Shown: one piece after another, positions 5,954-27,391 of the stretch
Layout: each line of letters opens with the position of its first letter
Numbering within the stretch: the stretch's first letter is position 1
Source: a virus
DNA: 64,000 bases
Virus record (IMG/VR): IMGVR_UViG_3300007513_000984
Coordinates: 1 to 64,000 of that record
Direction: 5' to 3' (one strand)
Notes under the pieces: generated by a model
Told to the model about the DNA's origin: nothing
Seen by the model: the letters and a program-made list of their open reading frames with translations, nothing else
The model's database searches: none
Made by a program: the position numbers and the translations under genes

Positions 5954-6848
5954 AATACCATCCGTATGTTTCTGTTAGTGCTTCTTCTAATGTATATTTT
6001 GGTGTCCATCCTAGTTCTTTCAACCTTGAATTATCAATTGCTCTGTTTTTAATTCCTTCTGGTCTATCAGTGTTATACCACAATCTACCTTTGAATCCAC
6101 TTATTGTTTTTAATGTTTCTGCTAAAGTTCTAATAGAAGTTTCAACTCCACTAGCAACGTTAACTGTATCATATTTATTGTTGTTTAGAATTATATCCAT
6201 TGCACTTATGGCATCCTTGATATAAATCAAATCTCTACTTTGATTACCGCTTCCCCATATTTCAATCTCAGTGTGGTCTTCTTTAACTGCTGTAACAAAC
6301 TTTTGCATTAACGCACCAATTACGTGTGCGTGTTCTCCTGTTCTATCATTTGGTCCAAACATATTAGAGTTTATTGCAGTACGCCAATGTGTTCCTGCCT
6401 TTTCATTCTTTGCTCTACACTGATACATGCCCATTAACTTTGGCATTGCTGTTGGTAAATATGTCTTGTGTGGTTCACCTTCCATTAGTTGGTCTTCATT
6501 ATATGGTTGACTTCCCTCTGCTGGATAACTACAAGTGCTTCCTTGTAACAGCACTCTATCTATACCAAACTCAGAACACACATCAAATATATTATTCTGA
6601 ATAGTCAAATTCTTTATCATCAGTTCATAACTTTTATCTAAGTCTTCTTGTAGACCACCAACTGTGGCCGCATTGATGATTACGTGTGTTGGCAATCCAT
6701 ATGTTCTTCCTAATCTCATAAATTCTCTGATTGTACTAGTCAGGTCACTATAGTTAACTGTGTCTGTATTGCCACCTAGAGAATTACTAATTACATTACT
6801 GTAATGTGTTCCTACTAATCCTCTATTTCCTGCTATATAATATTTCAT
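5940..6848 (-). CDS. GDP-L-fucose synthase-like epimerase/reductase with altered active site
   Basis: 302 residues that follow the GDP-4-keto-6-deoxymannose epimerase/reductase (Fcl/WcaG) plan. They include an N-terminal AGNRGLVG dinucleotide motif, GSTCSYP (Ser104, Cys106), a FGPNDR block, AHVIGAL (active-site His) and IWGSGNQSRDLIYI. The catalytic Y-x3-K motif appears as T-A-M-P-K (Thr133, Lys137), so the usual tyrosine seems replaced. It overlaps its upstream neighbour by 4 bases (ATGA). It may be a divergent active enzyme, or it may have lost reductase activity. Family assignment is strong but activity is uncertain. Confidence 0.8.
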   Translation of the reverse strand: MKYYIAGNRGLVGTHYSNVISNSLGGNTDTVNYSDLTSTIREFMRLGRTYGLPTHVIINAATVGGLQEDLDKSYELMIKNLTIQNNIFDVCSEFGIDRVLLQGSTCSYPAEGSQPYNEDQLMEGEPHKTYLPTAMPKLMGMYQCRAKNEKAGTHWRTAINSNMFGPNDRTGEHAHVIGALMQKFVTAVKEDHTEIEIWGSGNQSRDLIYIKDAISAMDIILNNNKYDTVNVASGVETSIRTLAETLKTISGFKGRLWYNTDRPEGIKNRAIDNSRLKELGWTPKYTLEEALTETYGWYYDNA

Positions 6849-7633
6849 TTATTAAACCTATTACTATTTGTTATTACAAAATAATCATATAATGAACGTT
6901 TCTGTGTTACTCCCCAATGACAAATCTTTTGATGCTCTCTCACTAATCTAAGTTCTTCTTTAAATCCTGGCATAGTATATGCAAATGGATACGGTTGCAT
7001 AACTGCCATACCATTTGGAGTAAGATACTTTCTTATATTTTCTATGAAAAATAAAAGTTCTTCAGTGTTATATGGAGAAAAGAATGAATGTGTTTCACCG
7101 TCTTTGTCCATAACCCAAAACTCATTTTCTAAAAGTCCTTTGTGATATCTTATTACTCTGTTTGAATTCCAAAGCATGTTTGTCTGTGTTGCTAAAATCA
7201 AATCATATTTTTTATTTAAAACAAATTCTTCTTTTGGTTTTACATGTAGGTCAATAGGTGCAACTCCCATTTCTTTCCACACAAGTTCTAGTTCATACAA
7301 ATGTTCACTTGCTTCTGTACTAGAGTTTGTACACTCTACATTAGTAAACCCATGCTCTTTAAGAAAATGTGGAATGAATCCGAATTGTGTACCCATATCA
7401 AGAATAGCAAGGTCTTTTGATGCGTCTGAAAGTTTTACATTCTCCATAATCTCTATATGATAATTCCAAAAATCTACATTTAGTTTCTCTTCAAAATTGC
7501 TTCTATGCATCTCTATTCTATTTGAACAGTTTGCTATATTTGGATAATTCTTAGAAAAATTAGTAAGATACTTTTCGAAAGACTCTTGTATATCTAATGA
7601 TAAAATTTTATAATATTTATTCGCTGATTTCAC
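6845..7633 (-). CDS. Class I SAM-dependent methyltransferase
   Basis: 262 residues. A glycine-rich SAM-binding motif, ILDMGTQFGFIP, lies at ~77-88, followed by an acidic strand-2 region and a motif-IV-like YDLILATQTN. The start is GTG at 7633, preceded by GGAG five bases upstream, because no ATG lies near. This overlaps the upstream gene by 17 bases. The substrate is unknown; a sugar or glycan methyl acceptor is suggested only by the neighbours. Confidence 0.65.
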   Translation of the reverse strand: MKSANKYYKILSLDIQESFEKYLTNFSKNYPNIANCSNRIEMHRSNFEEKLNVDFWNYHIEIMENVKLSDASKDLAILDMGTQFGFIPHFLKEHGFTNVECTNSSTEASEHLYELELVWKEMGVAPIDLHVKPKEEFVLNKKYDLILATQTNMLWNSNRVIRYHKGLLENEFWVMDKDGETHSFFSPYNTEELLFFIENIRKYLTPNGMAVMQPYPFAYTMPGFKEELRLVREHQKICHWGVTQKRSLYDYFVITNSNRFNK

Positions 7634-9482
7634 TTTCTCTCCATTTGTGTTGATGCTTATTATAAAACGGTATGTCTTCTTTAAATAACTCGGTAACTAT
7701 TTCTTCTTCTTTATCTGTTAACTTTATATGGTCTTTAAAATTCTCAATCATTGGCATACCCCAGAAATGTTTAATCAGATTCTCAAGTTTCTTTCCAATC
7801 AATAAAATATGTGGTTTGTTTTGTACATGATGACCAAATGTTGTCACTTGATATGCTATTTTATCTAAGTCTACTACACCCACTATTTTTAAGTCTTTAA
7901 CAAAATCACATTGTGATTTTCTATAACCCGAGTCTTTATATTTTTCTATCATTCCATCAAAAGTTAACGAAGTATTATATAATCTATGTTTGAAACGTTC
8001 AAGTGGACTTCTAATTGCCATGTAGGCATCTTTGGTTTCAATATCATTAATATCTTTGCGATTATGTAATTCATATCCTGTCTCAGGAGCAATCATTGTT
8101 TCAAAGTATTTAGAGTCGTTGCCTGGTATTGGCACAAATATACTATCGTCATCTTTATTATACCAAATTTTATCAATCAAGTCAACATGTTTGGCAACAA
8201 GGCTAACATCATCTGACTTACTTACAGACTTCAAAATTCTTTCACCTACTACTTGTGAATATACATCTTTGTAGTGAATGTAATTGTGTTCCAGTATTTC
8301 TTTCATTTCATCATTATATATCCAATTGTTGTGTCCATCTAATTTACAATTAAAGTTTTGTTGAATATCAAGTATAGTAGCACCTAAACTTTTAACTCTT
8401 TCATCACCAGAGCATCTATCATAATCTTCTGACCAGAATTTATCAAATGTTTTGAATCCTAATTTCTTTAAGTAATTCATATATCCCTTGTCACCCATAA
8501 CAACAAATGGTATTTTACTTAATATCGCTAATGATAGTTTTTCACTAATTTGTATGTCATCTTCAGTCGAGGTATATTCTGTAATGATTTCAAATTTTGA
8601 TTTTGCTCGATAGTTAAATAGTTCTGTTACTCTTGATATTTTACTAGAGCCTAACCATTTATCAATATCTTTGTCTTCCATTTCTAATTGTCTTCCATAA
8701 AGGTCATTAACAACTTTAAGAAAGTTACTTTTATTAATTTGATGGTCATCTACTCTTGTGGTTAACAAATCAACGAAATCTATATTATGAGATATGTCTT
8801 CTCCGATTTTCGAAGTTTTATAGTTGCCTATATACGAAAAATGCATATCATCTAAGTCTACATCACGTCTTAAACATTCTAACAATAACTTAGTTCTGTG
8901 TTCTCTTGTACGTCTGTTTAAATATATTGCTGACTTGGTTTCTACTAAATGATTGTGTGTTAGATGTTCGCAAGTGTCATACTTGAATCCTATATATCGA
9001 AGTGTACTTAGTGAAGCCGAAACAATATCTACATCACACTTAGACTTGTCTACGATTTTATATGGCGACTCGTACATTGTCCAGTATACTACATTTTTTG
9101 TACAATCTATATCTTTAAAATGTTGATTTATAATTCCATATATTGAAGTATCATCAGTTGATAATGGAGTAATCTCACTCCCAAAATCAAAAATTAATAA
9201 AGCCTTGCCTGATATTATCTCACTCATAACTTTATGATTTTTAATAGTATCTTCTACTAGTTCTTTCATAATTTCTGGATATGGTCGATTAATAACTACA
9301 TTCATCTGAGAGTCAAAGAACAACATGTCAGAGTTTACAATATAGTATTTGTCATATTGTTTGGGTCGTGGTATATGAGAGAAAATCAAATTGTATACAC
9401 GATTTACATAACGGTCGTTATTAGTTAGAAAGCATATTCTTTCATTTAGTTTCTTATCTGCTATTGCCTTATTATGAAACAC
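7617..9482 (-). CDS. Large glycosyltransferase-like protein with possible sulfotransferase-like C-terminus
   Basis: 621 residues. The start is GTG at 9482 with a GGAG seven bases upstream. A central segment (~335-385) contains KLGFKTFDKFWSEDYD, which resembles a block seen in phage glycosyltransferase-like proteins (lysine/GF-x-TF followed by acidic-YD and a later arginine). The last ~160 residues include AIRSPLERFKH and a terminal acidic/FYN segment reminiscent of carbohydrate sulfotransferases, where R-x-P-x-x-R-F contacts the 3'-phosphate of PAPS. Both calls are motif resemblance only. It overlaps the upstream radical-SAM gene by 11 bases. Confidence 0.45.
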   Translation of the reverse strand: MFHNKAIADKKLNERICFLTNNDRYVNRVYNLIFSHIPRPKQYDKYYIVNSDMLFFDSQMNVVINRPYPEIMKELVEDTIKNHKVMSEIISGKALLIFDFGSEITPLSTDDTSIYGIINQHFKDIDCTKNVVYWTMYESPYKIVDKSKCDVDIVSASLSTLRYIGFKYDTCEHLTHNHLVETKSAIYLNRRTREHRTKLLLECLRRDVDLDDMHFSYIGNYKTSKIGEDISHNIDFVDLLTTRVDDHQINKSNFLKVVNDLYGRQLEMEDKDIDKWLGSSKISRVTELFNYRAKSKFEIITEYTSTEDDIQISEKLSLAILSKIPFVVMGDKGYMNYLKKLGFKTFDKFWSEDYDRCSGDERVKSLGATILDIQQNFNCKLDGHNNWIYNDEMKEILEHNYIHYKDVYSQVVGERILKSVSKSDDVSLVAKHVDLIDKIWYNKDDDSIFVPIPGNDSKYFETMIAPETGYELHNRKDINDIETKDAYMAIRSPLERFKHRLYNTSLTFDGMIEKYKDSGYRKSQCDFVKDLKIVGVVDLDKIAYQVTTFGHHVQNKPHILLIGKKLENLIKHFWGMPMIENFKDHIKLTDKEEEIVTELFKEDIPFYNKHQHKWRESEISE

Positions 9483-10743
9483 TTGGTTGCTCCGACGGTG
9501 GGGCCGTTATACTTCTTTTTGTACTTTTTATTTCGTCATTTATGTTCTTGCCACAAAATGTACTACAAGTAAACAACTTGCCTTCTTTCGTTGTTGGCGT
9601 ATTCCATCTCTTAACGAATCCTTTTTGCATTATATCAGAATGAATTATATTTTTAATGTTATTGTCTTTACTTAATTTTATAGTATCTTCTCCATATGAG
9701 TGTACAAACTCTCTCAACTGATTAGACTCAAATCCATTATTTGCGTAATATTTGCTACCAGTGAAACAACAAGGAAGAACAAGACCAGTAGAATCAACGA
9801 ATATGCCCTGGTATTGATTATCTTTTAATTCGGGTCTAGACAAGTTATACCAAGATAACGAATCGCAAGAAATTTTACAGTCATCTAACTTTTTAATAGA
9901 TTTTTTATTTAGATTATTATAATAATACTCTGAGGGCTTATCTTGCTCAAAATACTTAAACACATCCTCTACATCTCCTTTTTTAGTAACAGATGGTTGT
10001 TCTGTATCTTTCTTAAGCAATGCTTCATTTTTCCATTCATCATCTGGAGAATATATTTTATAATCTAATTTACCATCGTGGTCTAGAACTTGTATTTCTT
10101 TTTGAAAACTATCAATAGCAACACTTTGAAATCCCATTGCCTTCTTTGCATAAAATTCTTCGATGCCAATCTCTTTTGCTAATTCTCTTGCTTCTGCTAT
10201 TTGATGTTGATTGTGTTCAAAAACTAAAAATTCCCAAACTGCTGATGAGTCTGGAACTGACTTGTAAGATAGCATCGCATTCATTACTTTACTCCAGTTC
10301 ACTCCTTTTCTATACAGATGATTAGTATCTTCTAATCCGTCTACACTAAATACCATTCTTCCATTTCTGCCTATAATTTTAGCCATGTCTTTCCAAAATT
10401 GACTATCTCTGCCACCTGCATTAGTGTTCATAGTAATTGAAATTGTTGGATTTAGTTCTCTTACATATTGTAAAATTGGAACTAACTCTGGATTTGTCAT
10501 AGGGTCACCATAATTACCACACAAAGTCAACTGGTCTAGTTGTCCAATAAAACTTCCATAGTGAATTCCATCGTCAAAATCAACAGAAAACCATTGTTTG
10601 AATTCATCTAATGTGATAAATCTTTCTATCATAATTGGATTTTTAGGTCCACCTCTAATACGCCTATTACAAACTGGACACTCTGCATTACATAAACTGC
10701 TTGGCTCTAAATGCATAGTTTTTATTTTATTATAATCATACAT
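9472..10743 (-). CDS. Radical SAM protein with C-terminal SPASM-like cluster
   Basis: 423 residues. The radical-SAM motif C-x3-C-x2-C is Cys18, Cys22, Cys25 near the N-terminus, followed by an LCGNYGDPMTN block in place of the usual GGEP. The C-terminal third holds many cysteines (CKISC, PCCF, TCSTFC), as in SPASM auxiliary 4Fe-4S cluster domains. Unlike the other six radical-SAM proteins here, its auxiliary cysteines are C-terminal. Family members modify peptides, proteins or sugars, and the substrate is not readable. It overlaps neighbours by 8 and 11 bases. Confidence 0.85.
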   Translation of the reverse strand: MYDYNKIKTMHLEPSSLCNAECPVCNRRIRGGPKNPIMIERFITLDEFKQWFSVDFDDGIHYGSFIGQLDQLTLCGNYGDPMTNPELVPILQYVRELNPTISITMNTNAGGRDSQFWKDMAKIIGRNGRMVFSVDGLEDTNHLYRKGVNWSKVMNAMLSYKSVPDSSAVWEFLVFEHNQHQIAEARELAKEIGIEEFYAKKAMGFQSVAIDSFQKEIQVLDHDGKLDYKIYSPDDEWKNEALLKKDTEQPSVTKKGDVEDVFKYFEQDKPSEYYYNNLNKKSIKKLDDCKISCDSLSWYNLSRPELKDNQYQGIFVDSTGLVLPCCFTGSKYYANNGFESNQLREFVHSYGEDTIKLSKDNNIKNIIHSDIMQKGFVKRWNTPTTKEGKLFTCSTFCGKNINDEIKSTKRSITAPPSEQPSVS

Positions 10744-11935
10744 GAGTTATCTTGCCTTTAAATTCTGGTAGAAAATCTTCAATATCTTGTTTTCTTATCT
10801 CGTCTAAGTTACGTGTATATTCTTTTGCTTGTTCCCACTTTTTTGGCATATCTGGACCACTGAACATTTTCTTTAGTTCATTTAATTTCCATTTGTCAAA
10901 TACGTTATCAAATTTTTTATGAATGTCATCTCGCATCTCCTTTGGCAATACAGCAGGAGATAAAACATCTGGGTCATATACATAGTTGTGATGAACCCAA
11001 ATTCCATGCTTATTATAGAACTCATTATAAAAATCACCTAGTGTACTATAGTTCATCCATGATACAGTTTGTGTTACATCTATTTCAAAGTTCTCTTTTT
11101 TTAGACGAAGAAAGTTTTTCTCAACATCGTTCCATTTTGTGGGATAGCGGATGTAGTGGTTTCTATCTCCCAAATCATCAATGCTACAACTTATTTTTAC
11201 ATGGTCAAACTTGCGCCACAAGTCTATAACTTTTTCATTCATTAGTGTCATATTAATATTATACCACAACTTGATATCAGTTTTGCCTAACTCAACAAGT
11301 CGTTCTAAGAATGCAAAGTGTTCTTTGATTAACATCGGTTCGCCACCATTAATGTAAAAAGTTTTAACGTTATCACAATGTTGTAACAAGTCTTCCCAGA
11401 ATCCCTCTCGTTCTGGCCATCTGAATCCTTCTAGTGTGTTGTAATCTGTTAATTGAAATGTAGTTGCATTCTGTAACTTATCATAATCATTTCTCCACTT
11501 ACTACTAGAAGCAGGATTACAAGTACGACATGCAACATTACAAGTATTGCCTAGGCGTAGTTCTACAAATTCTAATTGTACATCTTTCATATAGCCTGTG
11601 CTATCTGTGACTTCTCTCGCAACGTCTACAGTATATTCTGGATAGTTTTTAATTTCTTCTATACGTTTTGAGTTCATACCCTTGGCTTCTTCTGCAAAGC
11701 AACGCAAACATGCTTTTGGTTTTTTGCCATCTAATACTTCTAGTCTTGCTTTCTTATAACTCTCACTGTTCATTGTGTCATGTACAGTGTCACGATTTAG
11801 ATTATAAAATCTATCACCGTCACGTGAACTACTCAATGCATTACGATGGTCAGCAACACAACAATGCGTGACGCCGCCATGTGGATGCGTAGCAAGATGT
11901 TGAAACAATAGTGGGCAAAAAGTATTACTCATCAA
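10736..11935 (-). CDS. Radical SAM protein with N-terminal twitch-like cysteine cluster
   Basis: 399 residues. Auxiliary cysteines come first (Cys7, Cys25-Cys26, Cys76, Cys79), then the radical-SAM triad Cys132-x3-Cys136-x2-Cys139 in NTCNVACRTCN, then a NGGEPML strand. This order, auxiliary cluster before the SAM barrel, matches the 'twitch domain-containing radical SAM' family. The gene lies within the seven-member array and overlaps both neighbours (8 and 11 bases). The reaction is unknown. Confidence 0.85.
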   Translation of the reverse strand: MMSNTFCPLLFQHLATHPHGGVTHCCVADHRNALSSSRDGDRFYNLNRDTVHDTMNSESYKKARLEVLDGKKPKACLRCFAEEAKGMNSKRIEEIKNYPEYTVDVAREVTDSTGYMKDVQLEFVELRLGNTCNVACRTCNPASSSKWRNDYDKLQNATTFQLTDYNTLEGFRWPEREGFWEDLLQHCDNVKTFYINGGEPMLIKEHFAFLERLVELGKTDIKLWYNINMTLMNEKVIDLWRKFDHVKISCSIDDLGDRNHYIRYPTKWNDVEKNFLRLKKENFEIDVTQTVSWMNYSTLGDFYNEFYNKHGIWVHHNYVYDPDVLSPAVLPKEMRDDIHKKFDNVFDKWKLNELKKMFSGPDMPKKWEQAKEYTRNLDEIRKQDIEDFLPEFKGKITHV

Positions 11936-12887
11936 TCAACTCCATATTAGTTATTGCATTGCATTTGTCCAGTTCATTCTGAACTCTTTCTTCTGTTGTG
12001 CCATTCATATCTATTTTACCCAATACAATTCTACCAAGATTGAACATAGGCAAATCTGTATCATAATATTCTTTAAGATTGTTGTCGTCAATCCATTTTC
12101 TATATCCCTGCTCATATTCAACCATTTCTTGTCTAGTTCTCCAATCATTGAACACCATTAAAAAACAAGTATGTATTGTATTTTGTTGTGATAATCCTTT
12201 TGTTTTAACTAGTTCAAAATCATTTGTATTATAACAATGATTTAAATCTTTCCCCACACGAAAGAAATCTAATACCAACGAACCCCATGGTTCGTGAATG
12301 TCGAAATTTCCATAGTCTTCATCAGTCAGTGGTAGTGTAGGAGTAGGCATCATTTTTGGATATTCACTTACACGCATTGAACAATAGAAATCTTTAAAAT
12401 CTATATATCCTCGTTCTGTCGAATGTACAATTTGATTAATGTCTTCCAGTAATTTGTAAACTCCAGGCTCATATTTTTGACCACTTTCTATGATTTTATT
12501 TGACTCATCTTCGAAATATAGATGAAGTGCATTTGTTTTGTCTGACTCTAAATCTAATGATGTAGGGTCTAACATCAATGATGTGTCAATGTTTTTTAAT
12601 GAATCTACATTGTTGTTTATTTCTGTAATAATATTATTCATTTCATGTTTCAATCTGATAAACATATCTACAGTATTCTGCTTATAGATATTGAAATTAC
12701 ATCTAAACCGTTCGTTTACACTTATGTTGTCTTTATATAAACTAATAAATTTATCAGTAGTACTGCAACCCTCGGTCATATTATACGTAATAGTGTACTC
12801 TTTATTTGATGACATTGGCAAAACAAGTTCGTCTGCAATGGCGCATCTGTTAGTTTCTCCTTGTGATAATGTTATTCGCATTTTCAT
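11925..12887 (-). CDS. Hypothetical protein within the radical-SAM array
   Basis: About 320 residues from an ATG at 12887. That start is chosen because it overlaps the upstream stop as ATGA and has GAGG seven bases before it; a longer form from 12926 is less likely. No catalytic motif is recognised. The protein has several cysteines, a short helical stretch (~80-110) and a tryptophan/tyrosine-rich C-terminal half. Its position between two radical-SAM genes in one coupled operon suggests a partner or substrate role, which is inference only. Confidence 0.7.
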   Translation of the reverse strand: MKMRITLSQGETNRCAIADELVLPMSSNKEYTITYNMTEGCSTTDKFISLYKDNISVNERFRCNFNIYKQNTVDMFIRLKHEMNNIITEINNNVDSLKNIDTSLMLDPTSLDLESDKTNALHLYFEDESNKIIESGQKYEPGVYKLLEDINQIVHSTERGYIDFKDFYCSMRVSEYPKMMPTPTLPLTDEDYGNFDIHEPWGSLVLDFFRVGKDLNHCYNTNDFELVKTKGLSQQNTIHTCFLMVFNDWRTRQEMVEYEQGYRKWIDDNNLKEYYDTDLPMFNLGRIVLGKIDMNGTTEERVQNELDKCNAITNMELIDE

Positions 12888-14065
12888 AGTAGTGCCTCTT
12901 CTAATTCTGGCCACAATTTTGTCCAATCTGAATCTCGAATAGTATCAAGATTGTACATATAGTCAGTCATAAGTTCAAAGTCTTTTGATTTGTCAATTTC
13001 ATTCATGTGCCCCAAAGTCGAAGTAATCAGACTTTCACATAATGATTTATACTTCGTGTTTTCTAAAAAACTTTCTAATTTTCTAGTATATATTTTCTTT
13101 ATATTTTTAGGCAATAGATGTGGATTTAGATTGTATGGCCATATCGATAGATTAAAAGAAAAATTATCTTCGTCTGTAAATTTTAACTCATCAATAAAAT
13201 ATGTTAATAGTTCAGGTAAATATCCTATGCTTAATGCTGTAACTGTAATCTGTGGAGATAAACTAACATTAGGTATATCAAATCGAACTGTATGCAAATG
13301 TTCAGATATCTTTTCCCAGTCTGTTCCGTATCGATGATACTCTGCTTGTTTACCTATCATATCTATACTAGCGGCCACTTCAACTGATTTAAAATGTGAC
13401 CAACGTTCAGCAAGGTCAATCGATTTATATTTCAATGTACTTAGGTTTGTATTGTATCGTAGTCTAATGTCTTCTGATATGTTCATTGATATCATTTGGT
13501 CAACTAACTTATAATGATATGGTGTTATCAATGGTTCACCACCTGCAAAATATACTTCTTCAATATCATCACTAATTATACTATTAATAATTTCATCTTC
13601 TGTTTTCTTTGTTATATTGACAAATTTTGTTGGAGTGCTAGTTTTATCAAACAACTCCTTTTCAATATCATACCAGTTACTACTATAAGTAGAGCCACAC
13701 ATAATACATGCCATATTACATAAATTACTACTTCGAATATCTAAATATTTAATTATCATTTTAGGAGTAACATCTTCTGACATTAAATGACCATACTTTG
13801 AATTTAAACCAGTTCGTAGACTTTGTCCTGTGTGTTTTTCTTGTAGATAACAAAACTTGCATCCTGGTTGCTTTTTGCCTTCAAGTAATTCTTTTCGAAA
13901 CTTAATAGTTTCTGAACTATTCCAAATATCTTTAATAGGCGTTGTGTTTGAGTCACCGTACACTATCTCTTGGGTACAACATGGTCGTACTAATCCACCA
14001 GTATCAATATACAAATGAGACCATGGTGCGGCGCAGATTACATCTTTGTTCTTTTCATTAATCAC
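12884..14065 (-). CDS. Radical SAM protein with N-terminal twitch-like cysteine cluster
   Basis: 393 residues. The N-terminal cluster has Cys11 (CAAPWSHLYI), Cys29-Cys30 and Cys69/Cys72. The SAM cluster is Cys116-x3-Cys120-x2-Cys123 in NLCNMACIMC, followed by FAGGEPLI. The CAPW...CC...C-x2-C opening is shared with the 463-residue paralogue at 14602. It overlaps the isochorismatase-fold gene by 8 bases and the hypothetical gene by 4. The substrate is unknown. Confidence 0.87.
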   Translation of the reverse strand: MINEKNKDVICAAPWSHLYIDTGGLVRPCCTQEIVYGDSNTTPIKDIWNSSETIKFRKELLEGKKQPGCKFCYLQEKHTGQSLRTGLNSKYGHLMSEDVTPKMIIKYLDIRSSNLCNMACIMCGSTYSSNWYDIEKELFDKTSTPTKFVNITKKTEDEIINSIISDDIEEVYFAGGEPLITPYHYKLVDQMISMNISEDIRLRYNTNLSTLKYKSIDLAERWSHFKSVEVAASIDMIGKQAEYHRYGTDWEKISEHLHTVRFDIPNVSLSPQITVTALSIGYLPELLTYFIDELKFTDEDNFSFNLSIWPYNLNPHLLPKNIKKIYTRKLESFLENTKYKSLCESLITSTLGHMNEIDKSKDFELMTDYMYNLDTIRDSDWTKLWPELEEALL

Positions 14066-14609
14066 TGTACAACTCCGAACTGTGAATGTATGATAATCCA
14101 GATGCTAATACGTTGTGATAAGTATCATGTATAATATCATATTCTGTATACTTGATACTTAGAGTATTTAATACACAGTCAATAATAACATGACAATTAA
14201 AATTATCTTTCATATTATCTATTCCCAACGGACGACTTCTAACACATCCAGGAAAACTGGTACCAGCAAAATATAAATCTGTAACGTTATGCGAATTTAA
14301 AAACTTTACCACTTCATCTTTATCCCAAGAGACAATGTAATTTGGATTCATAATCTTCTTACGTGGGTCTTCAGTATCAGTATAGTCACGCAATCCATCT
14401 AGTATAGTCTGGTTAGTAGTACTCCATGGATTTGTAGAGTCGGGGGTTGGGTTTGGTGTATTATATGAAGCCACTACTATAGGTATTTTGTCTATTTTAT
14501 ACATCCTACTTTTCAATCTTAACGACATCTGTTCTAATAAACTAGTGAAACGGTCATTTCCTGAATGATACTTATCCCACATATCTATAATTATTAATGC
14601 TTTACTCAT
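14058..14609 (-). CDS. Isochorismatase-fold cysteine hydrolase-like protein
   Basis: 183 residues. The first strand ALIIIDMWDKY supplies the candidate catalytic aspartate (Asp9). The later FAGTSFPGCVRSR carries the candidate nucleophile Cys122, with CHVIIDCVLNT after it. This is the isochorismatase/nicotinamidase pattern. The usual catalytic lysine is not obvious by eye. Family members hydrolyse nicotinamide, carbamoyl groups or isochorismate. It lies between two radical-SAM genes and overlaps each by 8 bases, so it probably acts in the same pathway. Confidence 0.65.
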   Translation of the reverse strand: MSKALIIIDMWDKYHSGNDRFTSLLEQMSLRLKSRMYKIDKIPIVVASYNTPNPTPDSTNPWSTTNQTILDGLRDYTDTEDPRKKIMNPNYIVSWDKDEVVKFLNSHNVTDLYFAGTSFPGCVRSRPLGIDNMKDNFNCHVIIDCVLNTLSIKYTEYDIIHDTYHNVLASGLSYIHSSELYSD

Positions 14610-15993
14610 TGCTTATCCACCATTCATATAGTTCATCATCTGCTTTGTATATGTCAGCGATTGTAATTTTTTCATCTCGAATTTCATCTAGTCTATCTTG
14701 GAATTCTTTGCCATTCTTCTTACCTTGAACAAATTGTTCTGGATATTGTTCTTCAAATGATGGTCGTTTCTTCATTTCGTGTAACGTATTTATTAGTGTA
14801 GATTGTTTGTGTGTTGCACGAGGTTCAATGTACTCAAGCAACTCATCAATCTTTCTAATAAGAATGTGTTTCGGCCAAGCGAATGGTGAGAACACAATGT
14901 CTGGATGAAATGCAAACATAATCTTTGTTTCTATTCTTACATCTAACTCTAAACTCAAATCAAATAAGTCTTTAATACTGAACATACCTGGACCAGTAAT
15001 CGTCAAGTCAAACAACATCTTGTCTTTGCCACCTGGTGCGGCAAGACCTTCTTTGAAGTTTTCTAACCATTGTTCCCATACAATTCCTTTTCGAATGAAC
15101 TCAACAATCTCGCCAGTTCCATCTATACTCGCACACATTAACCAATCTTTAAATTGTGGTAAGTAGTCAAATAGTTTTTTACCTTTTAATTCTGTTCGTG
15201 ATAGATTAGAATTATATCTTAGATAACAGTCCTTTGCAGAGCCATTCTTAATCATTTCTTCTAATGCCCACCAATGTATATCATACATTAATGGTTCACC
15301 CCCAACCCAATATATTTCTTCAACTATACCTTTTGATATTGCTTCTCTGAATTCTGGTTCAACAACTTCAGTTTGAAACGTAGTCATTTTTTTCTTAACA
15401 TCTTTCTGCATGAATGGTTGTTGTTCTACAGTCCACATGTTATTCAATTTCTTCTCTGCTTCCCAAGATGATGATAACTGTTCACCACACATACGACATT
15501 TGAAGTTACATAAGTTAGAATATCTGTAATCAAAAGATATAACTGGCATTGTTGTGTGTCCGTCATCATCTGTGTTGTCGAATGCTTCTTGTATCTTATC
15601 TCTGAATAGTACTCCAGTAAACCATTTACGATATGAAGATACACTTAGAATGTCATCATTACATACATCACATTGTGATATACGTTCTCCTGCCATTAGT
15701 TTCTTGCGAATATCTTTCATGTACGGTGAGTTCCAATGTTCTTCTAAACTGACTGGATTAAAATCATCAGCCAATGTTTTAGATTCTTTTCTTTCTCCAT
15801 ACTTTGAATCGTTAGTCGCATCAATGTACTGTTTTTGGAATGAGTGTTCTTCTCTACTTGCACAACACATTCTTCTTTCACCTTGTGGAGATATATAAGT
15901 GTGTGACCACGGTGCCATACAGAAAGTTTTGTTCTCACTTTCTTCAGCACAACTGCCATCTTTATTCCAAATTGGTACAATCTTTTTAGTCAT
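14602..15993 (-). CDS. Radical SAM protein with N-terminal twitch-like cysteine cluster
   Basis: 463 residues. The auxiliary cluster has Cys25 (CMAPWSHTYI), Cys43-Cys44, Cys108 and Cys111. The radical-SAM triad is Cys162, Cys166, Cys169 in NLCNFKCRMC, followed by WVGGEPLM. It is closest in layout to the 393-residue protein at 12884, with longer insertions between the clusters. Overlaps of 8 bases on both sides show translational coupling within the array. Confidence 0.87.
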   Translation of the reverse strand: MTKKIVPIWNKDGSCAEESENKTFCMAPWSHTYISPQGERRMCCASREEHSFQKQYIDATNDSKYGERKESKTLADDFNPVSLEEHWNSPYMKDIRKKLMAGERISQCDVCNDDILSVSSYRKWFTGVLFRDKIQEAFDNTDDDGHTTMPVISFDYRYSNLCNFKCRMCGEQLSSSWEAEKKLNNMWTVEQQPFMQKDVKKKMTTFQTEVVEPEFREAISKGIVEEIYWVGGEPLMYDIHWWALEEMIKNGSAKDCYLRYNSNLSRTELKGKKLFDYLPQFKDWLMCASIDGTGEIVEFIRKGIVWEQWLENFKEGLAAPGGKDKMLFDLTITGPGMFSIKDLFDLSLELDVRIETKIMFAFHPDIVFSPFAWPKHILIRKIDELLEYIEPRATHKQSTLINTLHEMKKRPSFEEQYPEQFVQGKKNGKEFQDRLDEIRDEKITIADIYKADDELYEWWISNE

Positions 15994-17203
15994 TTAATCC
16001 AATTCCTAAATTAGGATACTCCTTTAAAACTGTGGGTATTGAAAACTTATAATTCCACACATGGTGTCTATTACTTAAAATCTTCTTCTCAATTGATATT
16101 ATCTTCTCAGTCAACTCTTTAATGGAAATTTCACTTATTCTTTTTATTTCTTTACAGTATTCTTTGAATCTTATTTTGGGATTTTCTATTTTGTCAAATG
16201 AGTAATCAAAAATTTCATCATACAATTCAAATCCAAATGTTTTCAAATCAGAATAATATCCTGAATAATTATATTGAAATCCTACTTTTCCAAATAAGTA
16301 AGATTTCCAAGTTTTCTCAGTAATGAATTTAGTACTATAAACTGACTCAGAGTTTGTTTCAATTCCTATATCAATTAAACTATCAGACAAATAATGAAAA
16401 CTAGGAACAGATTCATAATTTCCATTAGTTCTTAAGTCTTCTGGTTCGTAATCTAATATCAATCGTTTAGTGTAATCAAATTGAGCATTTTCGTCATCTG
16501 GCTTTTCATCTAAAACTAAATTATCATTATATCCCACATTCAACCAACTTAGATGACATTTATCAATTACTTTGTCGTTATGCAAATAATTTACTAAATC
16601 AATTCGCTTCACAATTGGATTAGCATTCATACATATAAAGTGTTTTGATGGCGAAGACTTATAATCTGTTATGACATCCTCTTCTTTAAAACTCTTAAGT
16701 TTTGTTTTTGTTCTGTCTAGAATGCTAAAAGGATATGAATAATAATTATCAAATTGGTCTACGTTGCGAAAGGAAGCAGTTTTGCGAGGATTGATATCAG
16801 CATTTACTAAACTAACGGTTGTATTAACAGTCAGTTCTTTACATCTATACATTAATTGCTCTATATATCCTAAGTTTGATTGATTCAAATGTGAACCAAT
16901 TCCTGTATTTGTTTCATATAGGTCTAGTATATAAAGTTCTTTAGGTTCAGGCAAAGAAGACTTATTCAATTCAATTAAGTATTCTTCTGCTAGTTTTATC
17001 ATAAGACGAGTTTTCCACCAATTACAACTAACTATCAAAATGTTCTTATGAGGTCTTATATCTATCATTATTCCGGGGTTCTCATTCATCACTGTTGTGT
17101 ATTCATTGTCAGTTGATATAAGTAAAATATCATTCTGGCGATTTCTCTCATCGATTTCTTTCATCTCGAGGACTCGGTTAATTATATCTTTATAATCAAT
17201 CAT
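15986..17203 (-). CDS. Putative glycosyltransferase-like phage protein
   Basis: About 405 residues from the ATG at 17203, which overlaps the upstream stop by one base (TAATG) and has AGGA five bases before it. The longer frame from 17236 lacks such support. The C-terminal half contains FITEKTWKSYLFGKVGF and then LKTFGFELYDEIFDYSFD. This resembles a T-E-K-T block plus G-F-x-x-(Y/F) and acidic-Y/F-D block seen in phage glycosyltransferase-like proteins and loosely in GT-B fucosyltransferases. It shares the second block with the 621-residue protein at 7617. The activity call is tentative. Confidence 0.5.
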   Translation of the reverse strand: MIDYKDIINRVLEMKEIDERNRQNDILLISTDNEYTTVMNENPGIMIDIRPHKNILIVSCNWWKTRLMIKLAEEYLIELNKSSLPEPKELYILDLYETNTGIGSHLNQSNLGYIEQLMYRCKELTVNTTVSLVNADINPRKTASFRNVDQFDNYYSYPFSILDRTKTKLKSFKEEDVITDYKSSPSKHFICMNANPIVKRIDLVNYLHNDKVIDKCHLSWLNVGYNDNLVLDEKPDDENAQFDYTKRLILDYEPEDLRTNGNYESVPSFHYLSDSLIDIGIETNSESVYSTKFITEKTWKSYLFGKVGFQYNYSGYYSDLKTFGFELYDEIFDYSFDKIENPKIRFKEYCKEIKRISEISIKELTEKIISIEKKILSNRHHVWNYKFSIPTVLKEYPNLGIGLND

Positions 17204-18738
17204 TACTTTCCTAACGCATCGGTGTCTGTATTCCATCCACCAACTGCTTCATGTTCATCGTCTCCGCCATCATATGCTTTGGTTGTTGCAGGGTCGACAA
17301 TGCCGCCAGTAGATTCAAGAACAAATCGTTTTTGTCTAATATCATCTTCACTAGGAACATCTGCTTCTAGTGATTTAAACCATTCTGCTAATGGACCAGG
17401 AAATGTAGACACAAAATCTTTCTCTCTACGTATATCATATTGTGAAAAGAACGACTTGAAATCATTGTATAACTTTGGAATTTCAGCAGTATTCTTATGT
17501 GGAGTCTTTACAATATCTAAGTAGTCAACTAATCTGCGAACACTTTCTTTCTCGCCTTCAGTAAACATTTCTTGTGGACGTTCATTTTTATACCATTCTT
17601 CTAATTTATTTTTATAATGAGTTTTAATTTCTTCTGGTAATATCGCCGCACTTTGAAATGATGGAAAACGCAAAATGTTTAACGTCATTGTAGGCGCACG
17701 TTGTCCATATTCTTCTCGCATATCTAACATTTCGTCCATAAACTCTGTAATAGAATTTAAACATAGAGAGTTAATAGTCATCATCATATGTAATTTTCTT
17801 ACATTTGATTCTTTTAATACTCGATGAATGTTACTCTTCCATTCTTTATATTTTAATCCATCTCGAATATATTCTGCTTGTTGTCCAATTGATTCCATAC
17901 TTGTGTATACTTCAAAGTTAGGAATATACCAAGAGTTTTCAATAAGTTTATTAAGAACTTTAGGAGTTTCAGGACACATATTTGAGTTAATAGCAAAACG
18001 CATATTGCGTCCTCTATCAGGATTCTCTCTAAACCAATCAAACAGTTTCCAAGTTCCCTTATGCATTATAGGTTCACCACCAGTAATTCGTATCTCTTCT
18101 AAACAGTCTGCTAAGTCACTATCCCACCATTTATGAAATGCTTGAATGTATGGATTATCTTCTTGATGTTTAGTTGCTGGTTCAGCCCATGGGGCATTGT
18201 CTATAAAATGTCCTCGCCCATCAGACTGTATATTTTGATATCCACCAAAATCATTAATGTCTTTAACCCATGCTGTACTAAACGCAGGATTACAATAAGA
18301 ACATTTAAAGTTACATGCTCTATCGAATGATATTTCTAATGTACGCAAATTGACATTCTTGTCCCAAGGCATATCAACTGTCTTCGCAATATCTTCATCT
18401 TTATAGATTTCAGTCTTAAATACACGGTCAGATATATGCTGTTTACCCATGTCTTCAACTTTCCAACAGTACTCACACTCAGCAGGTCTTTCACCTTCTT
18501 GCATAAGTTTACGCATTTTCTTTTTATGAATTGTATTATGAATCGCTGACGGATTATCTTTCAGTTCTTCAAGTGGAATCCAATGTCCAGGCGGATGATG
18601 ACAACTTGCAGTTTGTCCATGTCCCAGCCAAATAGTTGCATTGTACCATTTTGCGGCACAATACGATTTACTAATCGGGTCAATGATTCGTTCTTTATAT
18701 TGATGGAGAGTTTCGTCTTCTATATATCTTCTAGCCAT
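17203..18738 (-). CDS. Radical SAM protein, CH-type N-terminal cluster (paralogue 1 of 3)
   Basis: 511 residues. N-terminal cysteines are Cys27, Cys46 (SCHHPP), Cys88 and Cys91 (CEYCW). The SAM triad is Cys142, Cys146, Cys149 in ACNFKCSYC, with RITGGEPIMH after it. It is closely similar along its length to the gene at 18731, sharing YNATIWLGHGQT-like and NPSAIHNTIHKKKMRK blocks, and more distantly to the gene at 20169. In this subgroup the CC pair of the other array members is C-H or C-Y. It overlaps its upstream neighbour by 8 bases. Confidence 0.87.
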   Translation of the reverse strand: MARRYIEDETLHQYKERIIDPISKSYCAAKWYNATIWLGHGQTASCHHPPGHWIPLEELKDNPSAIHNTIHKKKMRKLMQEGERPAECEYCWKVEDMGKQHISDRVFKTEIYKDEDIAKTVDMPWDKNVNLRTLEISFDRACNFKCSYCNPAFSTAWVKDINDFGGYQNIQSDGRGHFIDNAPWAEPATKHQEDNPYIQAFHKWWDSDLADCLEEIRITGGEPIMHKGTWKLFDWFRENPDRGRNMRFAINSNMCPETPKVLNKLIENSWYIPNFEVYTSMESIGQQAEYIRDGLKYKEWKSNIHRVLKESNVRKLHMMMTINSLCLNSITEFMDEMLDMREEYGQRAPTMTLNILRFPSFQSAAILPEEIKTHYKNKLEEWYKNERPQEMFTEGEKESVRRLVDYLDIVKTPHKNTAEIPKLYNDFKSFFSQYDIRREKDFVSTFPGPLAEWFKSLEADVPSEDDIRQKRFVLESTGGIVDPATTKAYDGGDDEHEAVGGWNTDTDALGK

Positions 18739-20191
18739 TTGTTTTCTCTATTTTAAATACTTTATCTGAAGCAGGGTCACCTTTTCTTTCCATTACTTCT
18801 GATTCTTCTACGGTTAAAGTGTCATACCAATCTACAATAATAGGGTCAAATGTCGCCCTAAAATCTTTACCACGTCTTGCATCATATTGTGTGTAAAACG
18901 ATTTGAAATCATTATGTCTCTTTTTTAGAACTTCTTCTGATGGTGGAGTTCGTATTGCTTTATCCATAAACTCAATAACACGAGTTACATGTACGTCTTC
19001 AATAGGACGTAAGTCTCCTTTTCTTCGGTTATACCATGCTTTTAATTTATCATTATAATGTTCTATAATGTAAGTTGGCAAGGTAGGAATACTCTGAAAT
19101 TCAGGATATAATACCAAGTTCAATGATAACATAGGTGAACGTTCTACTCCATATATATCACGCAGTGCTAACAGGTCATCCATGAAATCTGTTACTGTGC
19201 CTAAACATAGTGAGTTGATAGTCATCATTGCATAAAACTTTCGTACCTTAGGTTCATCTAATAATCTCTTAACATTATTTAACCAAACTTCATAATTCAT
19301 TCCATCACGAATATAATTTGATTGTTCTCCAGTTGATTCACAACTTGCGAACATCTCAAAGCCAGGCACATATTGTATTACCTCTAATAATTTGTCAAAC
19401 GTCTTTTCTTTTTCTGGAACAAGATTTGAGTTAATAGCAAATCTCATACTCTTTCCACGTTCTGGATTATTTTTAAACCAATCAAACAATCTCCATACAC
19501 TAGGATGCATAATAGGTTCACCACCAGTTACTCTAATACCTTCAAGTGTATCTGCTAGTCCACCTTCTTCTTCCCACCATTCCCAAAATGCTTGAATGTA
19601 TGGATTATCTTCATCTCTTTTTGTTACACTGGCAGCCCAATCAGCAGTGTCAATGAAGTGTCCTCTGCCATCTGATTGTATATTCTTATATGGTCCGTTG
19701 TCTTTAATATCTTTAACCCACGTAGTACTAAATGCAGGATTACAGTATGAACATGCAAAGTTACAGGCTCTATCAAACGATACCTCAAGTGTTCGTAAGA
19801 ATGTATTGTCATCCCATTTTGCTAAAGGTATGGCATCTAAATCTGTTTCTTCAAACATTAACGTTTTGAATACTCGTTCAGATATTCTATCTGGTCCCTC
19901 GTCTTCTACATTCCAACATTGAAAACATTCGGATGGTCTATCTCCTTCAAGCATCATCTTACGCATCTTCTTCTTATGAATTGTATTATGAATTGCTGAG
20001 GGATTACCTATTAATTCTTCTAATGGAATATCATGCATTGGTGGCTGATGACAACTAGTAGTCTGTCCATGTCCTAGCCAGATAGTTGCGTTATGCCATT
20101 TCGCACCACAAAATGAGTCACTCTTAGTGTCGATAACTCTTGCCTTATATTCGTGGAATGACTCAGAGTCACTCTTTTTCATGTGTGACAT
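18731..20191 (-). CDS. Radical SAM protein, CH-type N-terminal cluster (paralogue 2 of 3)
   Basis: About 486 residues. The start is set at 20191 because GAGGA lies five bases upstream and the length then matches the paralogue at 17203; an open frame to 20233 would extend deep into the upstream gene. Cysteines are Cys28, Cys47, Cys89 and Cys92 for the auxiliary cluster, and Cys143, Cys147, Cys150 in ACNFACSYC for the radical-SAM cluster. A VTGGEPIMH block follows. The close similarity to its neighbour indicates a tandem duplication. Confidence 0.87.
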   Translation of the reverse strand: MSHMKKSDSESFHEYKARVIDTKSDSFCGAKWHNATIWLGHGQTTSCHQPPMHDIPLEELIGNPSAIHNTIHKKKMRKMMLEGDRPSECFQCWNVEDEGPDRISERVFKTLMFEETDLDAIPLAKWDDNTFLRTLEVSFDRACNFACSYCNPAFSTTWVKDIKDNGPYKNIQSDGRGHFIDTADWAASVTKRDEDNPYIQAFWEWWEEEGGLADTLEGIRVTGGEPIMHPSVWRLFDWFKNNPERGKSMRFAINSNLVPEKEKTFDKLLEVIQYVPGFEMFASCESTGEQSNYIRDGMNYEVWLNNVKRLLDEPKVRKFYAMMTINSLCLGTVTDFMDDLLALRDIYGVERSPMLSLNLVLYPEFQSIPTLPTYIIEHYNDKLKAWYNRRKGDLRPIEDVHVTRVIEFMDKAIRTPPSEEVLKKRHNDFKSFYTQYDARRGKDFRATFDPIIVDWYDTLTVEESEVMERKGDPASDKVFKIEKTNG

Positions 20192-21749
20192 ATTGTTCCT
20201 CATATTCTTCTTTTGCTTCATTCCAAAAATCAATCATCTCTGGAAATGTTTCTAAGAAATTTAAGTTTCTACGTTTATCATATTGTGTAAAATATTCATA
20301 GAATTTTATTAATTTATCACTTAGGTCTTTTGAAGACATCTTCTCACCTTCTTTTGCCCATGCTAAATCTCTTTCTAATTTTAATACTTCGTAATTCTTA
20401 AAGCCAGTATACTTTCGACCATACAAATCATTTTCTAAAACATTCTCTTTCATAAAGTCAATGTTCTCTTTCAACATATCTAACATATCACCATCTGCTA
20501 GTTGTATAGCCATCCAATCTGGATATCTAAGATATGGAGTATCAAACCAAATTCTTTGTCTTTTCTTTCGTACAAAAGGTGGATGTTTAAATCCATTTCT
20601 ATCTGGTGGTTGAATAACTTTATCTTCTTGGTTTTCATAACCAAATTCTTCACGCAAGTCTAATATCATTTGTAAGAATCCACGTAGATTAGGAATACTC
20701 AATAAGTTAAACGTGTTGATGAATGATATTTCTGTACCAGAGGTTTCACGTAGAACACGTCTACAGTTCTCGTATAGTTTATCAAAGTCAAGACCATCAC
20801 GCATGTATTCTGCTTGTTTACCTACGCCATCTACACTTACATACAAACTAAAATGTTTACATGCTGGTGCGACATACCAGTAGTTACCACTATCTGGATT
20901 AAACTTAGTCTTGTCTTCCCACACACGAACTTCTTCAATTGCTTTTAACTTATCTATAAACTTATCAAACAACGCATCTTGTGGCGGACACATATTTGAA
21001 GTTATACTTAAATCTAGTGTTGCATTTGGATTTTCATTTACATAATCTAATACCTTAAATGTATTTCTATCCATAAGTGGCTCACCACCAGTCATACGAA
21101 AAACTTTTAAATCTTGATACACATCAGGCCACCATTTCCAAAATGCTTCTACATATGGATTATCTTTACGTGCAACTTCAAGAGGCATAAGTCCAGTCTT
21201 GCGTAGATAGTCTATATCATTATGACCTGTTCCATTTGAGAATCTAAATCCTCCATGTTCTTTGACATCTTCTTCCCATGTAGTAGACAAGTGAGGTGAG
21301 CAATAGGCACATTTAAAGTTACATGCTTGGTTGAAGTTGACTTCGACATATCGTGGAGTAATGTCGTGGTCCCAAGGATTGTTTACAACTTCATCCCATG
21401 CGTCTTTTACCCACCATTCACTTGAGCGATAGTGTCTATCGCTTAATCTACCACCCTCTGGTGGATTCGGAGCATCTTCTACATTCCAACAGTACTGACA
21501 TCCTTCAGGACGAGTACCCTCTTTCATTTGTTTTCGTTCTTGTAATTTGAACTGTGTATTATGTAATGCGTTTGGATTCGCTTTTAGTTCATCTAAGGGA
21601 ATCGCATGTGTTGGCGGATGATAACAACTGTGTGTTCTTCCTTGTGGTAAGTGTAGACTTACTTGAAGCCATTTCGCCATGCACATAGACGGTGACAATG
21701 CATTTAAATTGTCCCGAGTGACAACTGCATCATCGTCATAATTTGACAT
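20169..21749 (-). CDS. Radical SAM protein, CH-type N-terminal cluster (paralogue 3 of 3)
   Basis: 526 residues. Auxiliary cysteines are Cys23, Cys42 (SCYHPPTHAIPL), Cys84 and Cys87 (CQYCWNVED). The radical-SAM triad is Cys143, Cys147, Cys150 in ACNFKCAYC, followed by MTGGEPLMD. It is the most diverged of the three tandem paralogues and has an extra insertion around residues 250-280. Its start overlaps the stop of the glycosyltransferase-like gene by one base (TAATG), and its 3' end overlaps the next paralogue by about 23 bases. Confidence 0.87.
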   Translation of the reverse strand: MSNYDDDAVVTRDNLNALSPSMCMAKWLQVSLHLPQGRTHSCYHPPTHAIPLDELKANPNALHNTQFKLQERKQMKEGTRPEGCQYCWNVEDAPNPPEGGRLSDRHYRSSEWWVKDAWDEVVNNPWDHDITPRYVEVNFNQACNFKCAYCSPHLSTTWEEDVKEHGGFRFSNGTGHNDIDYLRKTGLMPLEVARKDNPYVEAFWKWWPDVYQDLKVFRMTGGEPLMDRNTFKVLDYVNENPNATLDLSITSNMCPPQDALFDKFIDKLKAIEEVRVWEDKTKFNPDSGNYWYVAPACKHFSLYVSVDGVGKQAEYMRDGLDFDKLYENCRRVLRETSGTEISFINTFNLLSIPNLRGFLQMILDLREEFGYENQEDKVIQPPDRNGFKHPPFVRKKRQRIWFDTPYLRYPDWMAIQLADGDMLDMLKENIDFMKENVLENDLYGRKYTGFKNYEVLKLERDLAWAKEGEKMSSKDLSDKLIKFYEYFTQYDKRRNLNFLETFPEMIDFWNEAKEEYEEQYVTHEKE

Positions 21750-22732
21750 TATCTATCCCAACCAGTTTGCTTTTCTGTTGCAAGTGGATTATTAACTCTA
21801 GGTGGATTTGTATAAACTCTCTTAAAGAATCTAGCCAATTCTGCTGTTGGGTCTGCAATCTCCATACCAATCTTATCTGCTAGAATATCTCCGATACGAA
21901 TTGATTCATCATACAGTTTATCATAATCCCATTCTACTCCAGTCTTAGAACATTTTTCACTACCACCAGAAAACATAGGTAAAACATCTTCTTCGAAATA
22001 AGATTTAAACCAATCAAACGATGAAATGCTTTCTAACTTATAATCTTCTACAAAATTAATATCATAACATCCTAGTCTTGCACCAAAGCAAGCCCAAATG
22101 CCATTCTCTACATCAGCACCAACATTACACCATGTTACTAGTCTTTCGTAGTTTTTTGGCCATATTCTCTTTTTAAAATCTTCAATAGGTACAGTTTTAC
22201 CTTCGTCTAAAGACATTTTAACACCTTCACGATATCCTGCACGGAATGCCTGAAATGGTGAGCCTGCGTTGTATACTTCTGAGTAGATGTTGTTCATTTG
22301 GATGTAATTCAAATCCCAACAGAAGTCTACTTTCTTTGTTTCGTCTTCTGCATTCTCGTGTGTTTTCATTTCTAACACCAAGTCTACTGGCCAACATTTG
22401 ATGCCGCCATTTCCGTATACTAATCCGTTTATCATATTCTTAGCACTCCAACTAACAATAGAGTTTGCTAAGTCTGTGTTTTCTGGAAAAGTTATCTCTA
22501 AGTCGAAAAACTTTTCATCAACGATGTTATCACCGTCAATACCAATAAATCTACTGGTTTCACTTTGTCTTGCACATTCTTTATGTGCGTTATCAAATCC
22601 TTTTACTCCATCTACTCTTTTAGCAAATGGGAATTTCATCATTAGGTTAGCCCAATGTTCTTCTTTTGCTGGTTCATCATAACTGATGTAGAATACATCT
22701 AAATCACCTATGACAACTTTTGATTCTTTCAT
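21749..22732 (-). CDS. GT-A-type glycosyltransferase-like phage protein
   Basis: About 327 residues from the ATG at 22732, which overlaps the upstream stop as ATGA and has GGAG six bases before it. The N-terminal half has VFYISYDEP, HWANLMMKFP, RVDGVKGFDNAHKECA and IGIDGDN. The D-G-D (Asp66, Asp68) would be the metal-binding DXD of a GT-A fold. A YGNGGIKCWP segment follows. I recognise this combination from phage glycosyltransferase-like proteins. The sugar and acceptor are unknown. Confidence 0.65.
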   Translation of the reverse strand: MKESKVVIGDLDVFYISYDEPAKEEHWANLMMKFPFAKRVDGVKGFDNAHKECARQSETSRFIGIDGDNIVDEKFFDLEITFPENTDLANSIVSWSAKNMINGLVYGNGGIKCWPVDLVLEMKTHENAEDETKKVDFCWDLNYIQMNNIYSEVYNAGSPFQAFRAGYREGVKMSLDEGKTVPIEDFKKRIWPKNYERLVTWCNVGADVENGIWACFGARLGCYDINFVEDYKLESISSFDWFKSYFEEDVLPMFSGGSEKCSKTGVEWDYDKLYDESIRIGDILADKIGMEIADPTAELARFFKRVYTNPPRVNNPLATEKQTGWDR

Positions 22733-25406: not shown

Positions 25407-25431
25407 AAATTTATTCTCCTATATTACTACA

Positions 25432-25460
25432 ATAATACAGTAAAATCAACCAAAAGTCAA
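25432..25460 (-). promoter_or_regulatory. Sigma-70-like promoter for the glycosyltransferase/radical-SAM operon
   Basis: On the minus strand TTGACT (25460-25455), a 17-base spacer and TATTAT (25437-25432). It lies immediately upstream of the 25406 gene and could drive the whole 20-kb co-oriented block. Downstream internal promoters cannot be excluded. Confidence 0.65.
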
Positions 25461-25463
25461 TAC

Positions 25464-26438: not shown

Positions 26439-26460
26439 TTACATCGTCCCATAACTTAGG

Positions 26461-27372: not shown

Positions 27373-27391
27373 TGTTATACTCCTCTAAAAT

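Follow-up and report, generated by a model that had tools for sequence, protein, structure and literature searches.

Radical S-adenosylmethionine (SAM) enzymes may carry a twitch or SPASM auxiliary-cluster domain, which is defined as a C-terminal extension (PMC9012708). In BtrN, the 2-deoxy-scyllo-inosamine dehydrogenase of butirosin biosynthesis (PDB 4M7T/4M7S), a fully ligated four-cysteine auxiliary cluster accompanies the two-electron oxidation of a cyclitol alcohol (PMC9012708). The NCBIfam model NF033640 (N_Twi_rSAM, twitch domain-containing radical SAM protein; curated cut-off, 170 bits) is named for its domain and gives no function in its description, and arrays of paralogues or a glycosyltransferase (GT) partner are outside its definition. 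Among viruses, radical SAM genes are enriched in Tasman Sea viral contigs and appear in auxiliary-gene lists with no role attached (PMC7150976), and a Baikal phage radical SAM gene was tied to pyrroloquinoline quinone (PQQ) synthesis (PMC7678222). A close precedent is a passing mention of radical SAM cassettes in pelagimyophages, which resemble the present array in place (a hypervariable island with adjoining tail genes and GT8 genes, in T4-like aquatic phages); its main text passages give no family, orthologous groups or bacterial counterpart (PMC7029224). Here we describe an operon of seven intact radical SAM genes, rS1 to rS7, in the first 64,000 bases (the window) of the 89,669-base IMG/VR record IMGVR_UViG_3300007513_000984.

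While the sequence family, the twitch domains and the passing mention of cassettes were known already, sequence comparison points to three new features: an ordered multi-group module, a GT-A glycosyltransferase partner and a presence in Bdellovibrionota. None of the three was found in a search of open-access literature. We give about an even chance (0.5) to a multi-step glycan pathway as the role of the operon: radical oxidations like that of BtrN would act on sugars assembled by glycosyltransferases and probably alter the surface of the infected cell.

A radical SAM array with N-terminal twitch domains

The seven genes form a single overlapping minus-strand operon, all are open, and each encodes a C-x3-C-x2-C motif. 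Upstream lie a GT-A gene, a small conserved gene, two GT8-like genes and virion genes; sugar genes (4868-9482) follow downstream. An earlier note on this DNA, made from the letters alone, had described a translationally coupled array with overlaps of 1 to 23 bases. Most overlaps in the operon measure 8 nucleotides (nt). Start codons were assigned mechanically, and the overlaps called in this way at 34 to 65 nt reduce to about 1 to 23 nt if internal ATG starts are used, which reproduces the described range.

The same note had placed an auxiliary cysteine cluster ahead of the SAM barrel in six of the enzymes, and the profile search that it proposed bore this out. rS2 to rS7 passed NF033640 over the full profile with 281 to 357 bits. 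Their auxiliary domain is N-terminal, unlike the C-terminal extension of the described twitch/SPASM enzymes. rS1, which is without the N-terminal twitch, remained below the cut-off at 46.8 bits, which is explained by the C-terminal position of its auxiliary cysteines (C293, C325/C326, C393, and C397, with C293, C326, C393, and C397 invariant); it therefore has the usual domain order. Its radical SAM cysteines (C18, C22, and C25) are invariant too.

The predicted cofactor cysteines are widely conserved. In rS7, the invariant cysteines are C23, C42, C84, C87, C143, C147, and C150, and an alignment of diverse members retained C7, C26, C76, and C79 together with C132, C136, and C139 (P0002 numbering) and the GGEP motif. 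All seven catalytic and auxiliary cysteines were present in 350 of 361 viral and 68 of 69 bacterial homologues, the losses being nearly all alignment gaps. The three motif cysteines were found in every one of the 361 viral homologues, GGEP is nearly invariant, and the structure model matches radical SAM folds. Ratios of nonsynonymous to synonymous substitution rates in close pairs were 0.045 to 0.11 (rS2, rS4, rS5, rS6, and rS7), indicating strong purifying selection. The conserved cysteines and the low ratios argue that the array is not a product of chance.

We compared a profile of the diverse members with solved structures. The best match was 8vpo; BlsE, SkfB, BtrN, SuiB, MoaA, and viperin were also matched. 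The match to BtrN covers its C-terminal twitch domain, and rS3 as a single query already aligns weakly to this twitch (E = 0.016), with each of the four cysteines paired. Since the C-terminal twitch of BtrN aligns with the N-terminal domain here, the latter corresponds to a BtrN-type twitch in a relocated position, ahead of the radical SAM barrel in the N_Twi enzymes and behind it in BtrN. From these alignments, we read the N-terminal domain as a permuted BtrN-type twitch, whose four cysteines would allow a fully ligated [4Fe-4S] cluster. The AlphaFold model of rS7 matched SuiB, BlsE, and viperin at low TM-scores, which do not decide the substrate.

Distribution in phages and Bdellovibrionota

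PHROG matches to a baseplate wedge, portal, head protease, and major head protein type the phage as T4-like. Its gp23 capsid protein is 66 to 69% identical to those of jumbo T4-like phages such as PA5oct, GAP32, and Vibrio phage 2.275.O, and among the array-bearing relatives are contigs 342.6 and 246.0 kb long (jumbo criterion, >200 kb). The window phage, whose capsid is nearest to jumbo phages, is a marine T4-like phage that may be of jumbo type, its own record being an 89.7-kb fragment.

A scan of IMG/VR with rS7 returned 564 related stretches with identities of up to 93%, and 80 of them entered the gene neighborhood comparison. With genes designated by their first coordinate in the window, the recurrent order was a large structural gene, 27392, 26461, 25464, 25023, 24152, 23298, 22729, 21749, rS7, rS5, and a variable stretch in which rS4 and rS2 are usually present. 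Contigs from other metagenomes keep this order, which rules out the assembly artifact that the earlier note had named as a reason for doubt. Its other reservation was that each gene might be common and unlinked in relatives. The genes are linked there, and they are nearly absent from cultured phages: in the INPHARED collection, rS7 and the GT-A partner had no counterpart, and rS3 had five matches, all distant. A search of plasmids with a group B enzyme found nothing.

A tree of 116 phage representatives resolved five groups: A (rS7), B (rS5 and rS6), C (rS4), D (rS3), and E (rS2). rS5 and rS6 are the only same-group pair in the window and reflect a recent duplication. Where a phage locus extends 9 kb or more past A (54 loci), B was present in 43, C in 34, and E in 29; 25 held A, B, C, and E together. 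One position is exchanged within this framework. The product of 15986-17236, between rS5 and rS4, is only 35 to 37% identical to the same-slot proteins of relatives whose rS7 and rS4 are >90% identical, so the gene in this slot has been swapped.

The GT-A partner, encoded immediately upstream of rS7, was present in 68 of the 80 phage loci. Its product matched nothing in Pfam or PHROG. A Foldseek search with its AlphaFold model returned the WrtF fucosyltransferase, GalNAc-T, and SunS (E = 5e-4 to 1e-2; TM-scores near 0.3), and D70 and D72 are invariant within DGDN, a DxD-type metal motif. On this modeled fold and motif, we regard the protein as a putative GT-A glycosyltransferase. The products of the two GT8-like genes (23298 and 24152) matched no Pfam model; their match to glycogenin-1 spans about the first 113 positions.

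The same set of enzymes occurs in the chromosomes of bacteria akin to the predatory Bdellovibrio. A scan of bacterial genomes with one query, the group E alignment with two short patterns, found four metagenome-assembled genomes, three of them Bacteriovoracaceae or Bdellovibrionales. The array in locus L093 reads B, C, E, two further members, A, and B; that in L091 reads B, E, C, and B; L090 and L092 each hold C and E. Their flanks are chromosomal (leucyl-tRNA synthetase, Obg, ATP synthase, and peptide deformylase, by sequence reading and partly by Pfam). We then sampled 114 genomes of Bdellovibrionota, the phylum assigned for L093, and 14 control genomes from outside it. NF033640 scored above its cut-off in 30 of the 114, with up to 12 genes each, and in none of the 14 controls. 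In a joint tree, phage and bacterial sequences share clades A (SH-aLRT, 99), B (99), C (100), and E (100), and the phage or bacterium label needs at least 12 changes. The groups therefore predate the split between present phage and bacterial copies.

The GT-A partner accompanies the enzymes in bacteria as well. It was found in 6 of the 114 genomes, all among the 30 NF033640-positive ones (hypergeometric P = 2e-4), and for 10 of the 15 bacterial hits an NF033640 gene is no more than 3.3 kb away. The linkage thus holds in two very different genomic settings. Against hand-picked control regions on the same contigs as the arrays, 7 of 134 neighboring proteins were GT2 enzymes, compared to at most 1 of 134 in the controls, and ABC-2 exporters were found as well. 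Other radical SAM enzymes numbered 14 among the neighbors and 2 among the controls (P = 0.003). Homologues of rS1 adjoin N_Twi genes in three bacterial loci (L102, L103, and L105).

A candidate glycan pathway and its alternatives

In the glycan pathway that we favor, the two GT8-like enzymes and the GT-A enzyme would build or extend a glycan. Several paralogous radical SAM enzymes, each with an N-terminal, fully ligated auxiliary [4Fe-4S] cluster of the BtrN type, would perform a series of radical steps, in all likelihood two-electron oxidations that each address a different position of a sugar or cyclitol. Tailoring enzymes, among them an aminotransferase, a methyltransferase, and an epimerase, would complete the sugars. 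The most likely effect of the product is a changed glycan on the surface of the infected cell, which might block competing phages or avoid adsorption to debris; decoration of virion proteins would be the second-choice target.

Several observations bear on these steps. The recurrence of clades A, B, C, and E in tandem in phages and bacteria argues for one pathway rather than loose copies. Because the BtrN auxiliary cluster goes with two-electron oxidation, oxidation of sugar positions is the most economical guess. By analogy, the profile relatives BtrN and BlsE, which act on cyclitol or glycoside substrates, favor a glycan, as do the predicted sugar epimerase, DegT, and C-methyltransferase genes in the window. 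The exchange of the gene between rS5 and rS4, while the enzymes themselves are under strong purifying selection, is as expected for glycan diversification. In pelagimyophages, a like island holds host-recognition genes (PMC7029224), which makes alteration of the surface the likeliest use. The earlier note had proposed multi-step modification of a glycan, peptide, or lipid; the multi-step part is supported, and the linked groups, the GT8 and GT-A genes, the GT2 neighbors, and the ABC-2 exporters make a glycan the best-supported target, with a peptide less so.

Some results speak against a glycan. The profile also matches peptide enzymes (SkfB and SuiB) and nucleotide enzymes (MoaA and viperin), and its top match, 8vpo, has no stated function. 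GT2 enrichment by itself is weak, with P = 0.014 if no control GT2 is counted and 0.066 if one is. The bacterial arrays L090, L091, and L092 have no adjoining GT. Finally, function does not track sequence clusters in this subfamily (PMC6231123).

The alternative that fares best, though we think it unlikely, is a protein substrate shared by the radical SAM enzymes and the glycosyltransferases. The likeliest candidate would be a virion protein associated with the tail or baseplate whose gene lies just upstream. Virion genes (25023-28051 in the window) and the large structural gene immediately precede the array in most phage loci, and many SPASM/twitch enzymes act on peptides (PMC6231123). The structural neighbors of rS7 and of the GT-A partner include SuiB and the peptide glycosyltransferases SunS and GalNAc-T, respectively. 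However, the bacterial arrays come without virion genes, the bacterial loci gave no match to any of the upstream virion families, and some phage arrays (L057 and L066) lie away from the tail block.

Less probable still is a pathway of the ribosomally synthesized and post-translationally modified peptide (RiPP) type, or a small-molecule pathway, for an antimicrobial or signaling compound. Multiple radical SAM maturases are typical of RiPPs, and bacterial neighbors of the arrays include B12-binding radical SAM enzymes. A RiPP-like product is disfavored by the lack of a precursor gene. The earlier note had advised looking for small peptide genes, and the array has no room for one: of 507 gaps adjacent to radical SAM genes in related loci, 391 are zero or negative and 478 are at most 30 nt, and no conserved small open reading frame was found in the few longer gaps. 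We therefore rejected a RiPP with its precursor inside the array. Furthermore, the annotated neighbors in the window include no RiPP recognition element, no peptidase, and no family of dedicated peptide transporters. We would give the least credence to a loose set of independent, host-derived paralogues spread by duplication in a hypervariable island, since the old and distinct groups A, B, C, and E recur jointly in phages and bacteria with the same GT-A partner, even if the rS5/rS6 duplication and the copy number (1 to 8 per locus, with 4 to 15 NF033640 genes per long phage contig) would suit it.

Two specific chemistries found little or no support. PQQ synthesis is unsupported, as the enzymes belong to NF033640 and no PqqE model matched, and nucleotide chemistry of the QueE or viperin type gave weak and short matches only. 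The note's suggestion of a defense-related pathway found no supporting evidence: the viperin model scored 15 to 24 against a cut-off of 180, and PADLOC was not searched.

Taking the glycan pathway further, we tentatively suggest, as a possibility that may well not hold, that aquatic phages and Bdellovibrio-type bacteria share serial radical sugar chemistry by permuted-twitch enzymes. This would be a previously undescribed form of glycan biosynthesis, which phages might maintain under strong selection, within a host-recognition island, as a means of remodeling the cell surface while they infect. For many of the marine viral radical SAM genes, a vague annotation becomes a testable pathway: an ordered module with a fixed GT partner, shared with Bdellovibrionota. 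If the enzymes act on sugars, they would make up an extensive and novel family of radical enzymes that modify sugars, and would offer phages a new route to cell-surface change. The O-antigen-modifying gtr operons are alike in this proposed outcome, a host surface glycan changed by phage genes. Those systems consist of a flippase and glucosyltransferases and use no radical chemistry.

Neighboring genes and related loci

The features of the array and its surroundings are collected in Table 1. The earlier note had placed an isochorismatase-fold gene, a hypothetical gene, and glycosyltransferase-like genes between the radical SAM genes. The first two were confirmed; the label "glycosyltransferase-like" is unproven for 15986-17236, as its product matched nothing in Pfam, PHROG, or NCBIfam. 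The isochorismatase-fold gene is accessory, being missing from the close relatives L003 and L006. The hypothetical protein P0003 had no structural relative in the PDB, and the product of 7617-9482 gave no match of note in Pfam or PHROG.

Table 1. Genes of the radical SAM operon and its flanks, in window coordinates
Feature	Coordinates	Strand	Remarks
rS7	20169..21749	-	First of array; group A N_Twi; NF033640 307 bits; AlphaFold pLDDT 87.8
rS6	18731..20233	-	Group B N_Twi, duplicate of rS5; NF033640 281 bits; start probably internal ATG
rS5	17203..18738	-	Group B N_Twi; NF033640 313 bits; bacterial orthologues 44-51% identical
rS4	14602..15993	-	Group C N_Twi; NF033640 325 bits; bacterial orthologues 44-49% identical, clade support 100
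rS3	12884..14065	-	Group D N_Twi, variable member; NF033640 339 bits
rS2	10736..11935	-	Group E N_Twi; NF033640 357 bits; bacterial orthologues 37-42% identical, clade support 100
rS1	9472..10743	-	Radical SAM with C-terminal auxiliary cluster; NF033640 46.8 bits
Putative GT-A-fold glycosyltransferase	21749..22744	-	AlphaFold pLDDT 85.8; conserved N_Twi partner in phages and bacteria
Conserved small protein of unassigned function	22729..23301	-	Same operon; 41 loci, alignment A5
GT8 (glycogenin-like) glycosyltransferase	23298..24155	-	Profile A3 matches glycogenin-1, E 3e-6
Second GT8 (glycogenin-like) glycosyltransferase	24152..25021	-	Same profile A3
Variable slot, protein with no assigned family	15986..17236	-	Between rS5 and rS4
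Isochorismatase-fold cysteine hydrolase	14058..14609	-	PF00857 29.0 bits, gathering cut-off 27
Hypothetical protein P0003	11925..12926	-	Recurrent phage-array accessory, 12 loci; family f12, alignment A4
Variable downstream gene, family unassigned	7617..9482	-	Overlaps rS1 by 11 nt
Putative methyltransferase-like protein (weak)	6845..7633	-	Methyltransf_12 E 0.06 only
NAD-dependent sugar epimerase/dehydratase family	5940..6848	-	PF01370 105 bits
DegT/DnrJ/EryC1/StrS sugar aminotransferase	4868..5953	-	PF01041 232 bits
Cupin, sugar C-methyltransferase, sugar epimerase	2428..4921	+	PF07883, PF08484/PF08421 (Methyltransf_13/14), PF01370; further glycan genes

The Vibrio jumbo phages K566 (L088) and QD01 (L089) are large T4-like phages that also carry several clustered N_Twi-like genes. 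These genes are only 21 to 25% identical to the window enzymes, and the GT-A partner and core groups were not found there. Neighbors in both phages include a nicotinamide phosphoribosyltransferase gene, and QD01 also has a lipopolysaccharide heptosyltransferase-like gene. QD01 has a cultured host, and the two phages are a possible cultivable test system.

Other phage arrays contain genes that, read by eye, look like carbamoyltransferase-, sulfotransferase-, and SGNH-type genes. Upstream of the array in the freshwater-type locus L066 (1169-3212), and likewise in L075 and L078, genes resembling those for CsgF, CsgG, and curlin were recognized by eye; a curli operon is also reported for pelagimyophages (PMC7029224). 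The phage locus L084 (342-17436) holds eight N_Twi-type genes, additional members of the radical SAM superfamily, and what looks from its sequence like a fatty-acid desaturase gene, which makes a lipid substrate possible for some variants. Single frames of about 1,000 amino acids with two NF033640 domains occur in the phage contig of L054 (G120:C1:103882-106740) and in a bacterial genome (G076:C28:4820-7672) and are, by their predicted domain content, tandem-fused radical SAM proteins. Near bacterial arrays, an amidinotransferase-like gene was noted by reading at L110:14533-15648 and L113:5715-6785; Pfam gave nothing for the L110 gene.

Elsewhere in the 64-kb window, a search for tRNA genes found none. 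A ClpP-type protease gene (41791-42381, plus strand; PF00574, 254 bits) stands alone on the opposite strand within the baseplate block, and an FG-GAP repeat protein, possibly surface or adhesin-like, is encoded at the contig end (34-1554, plus strand).

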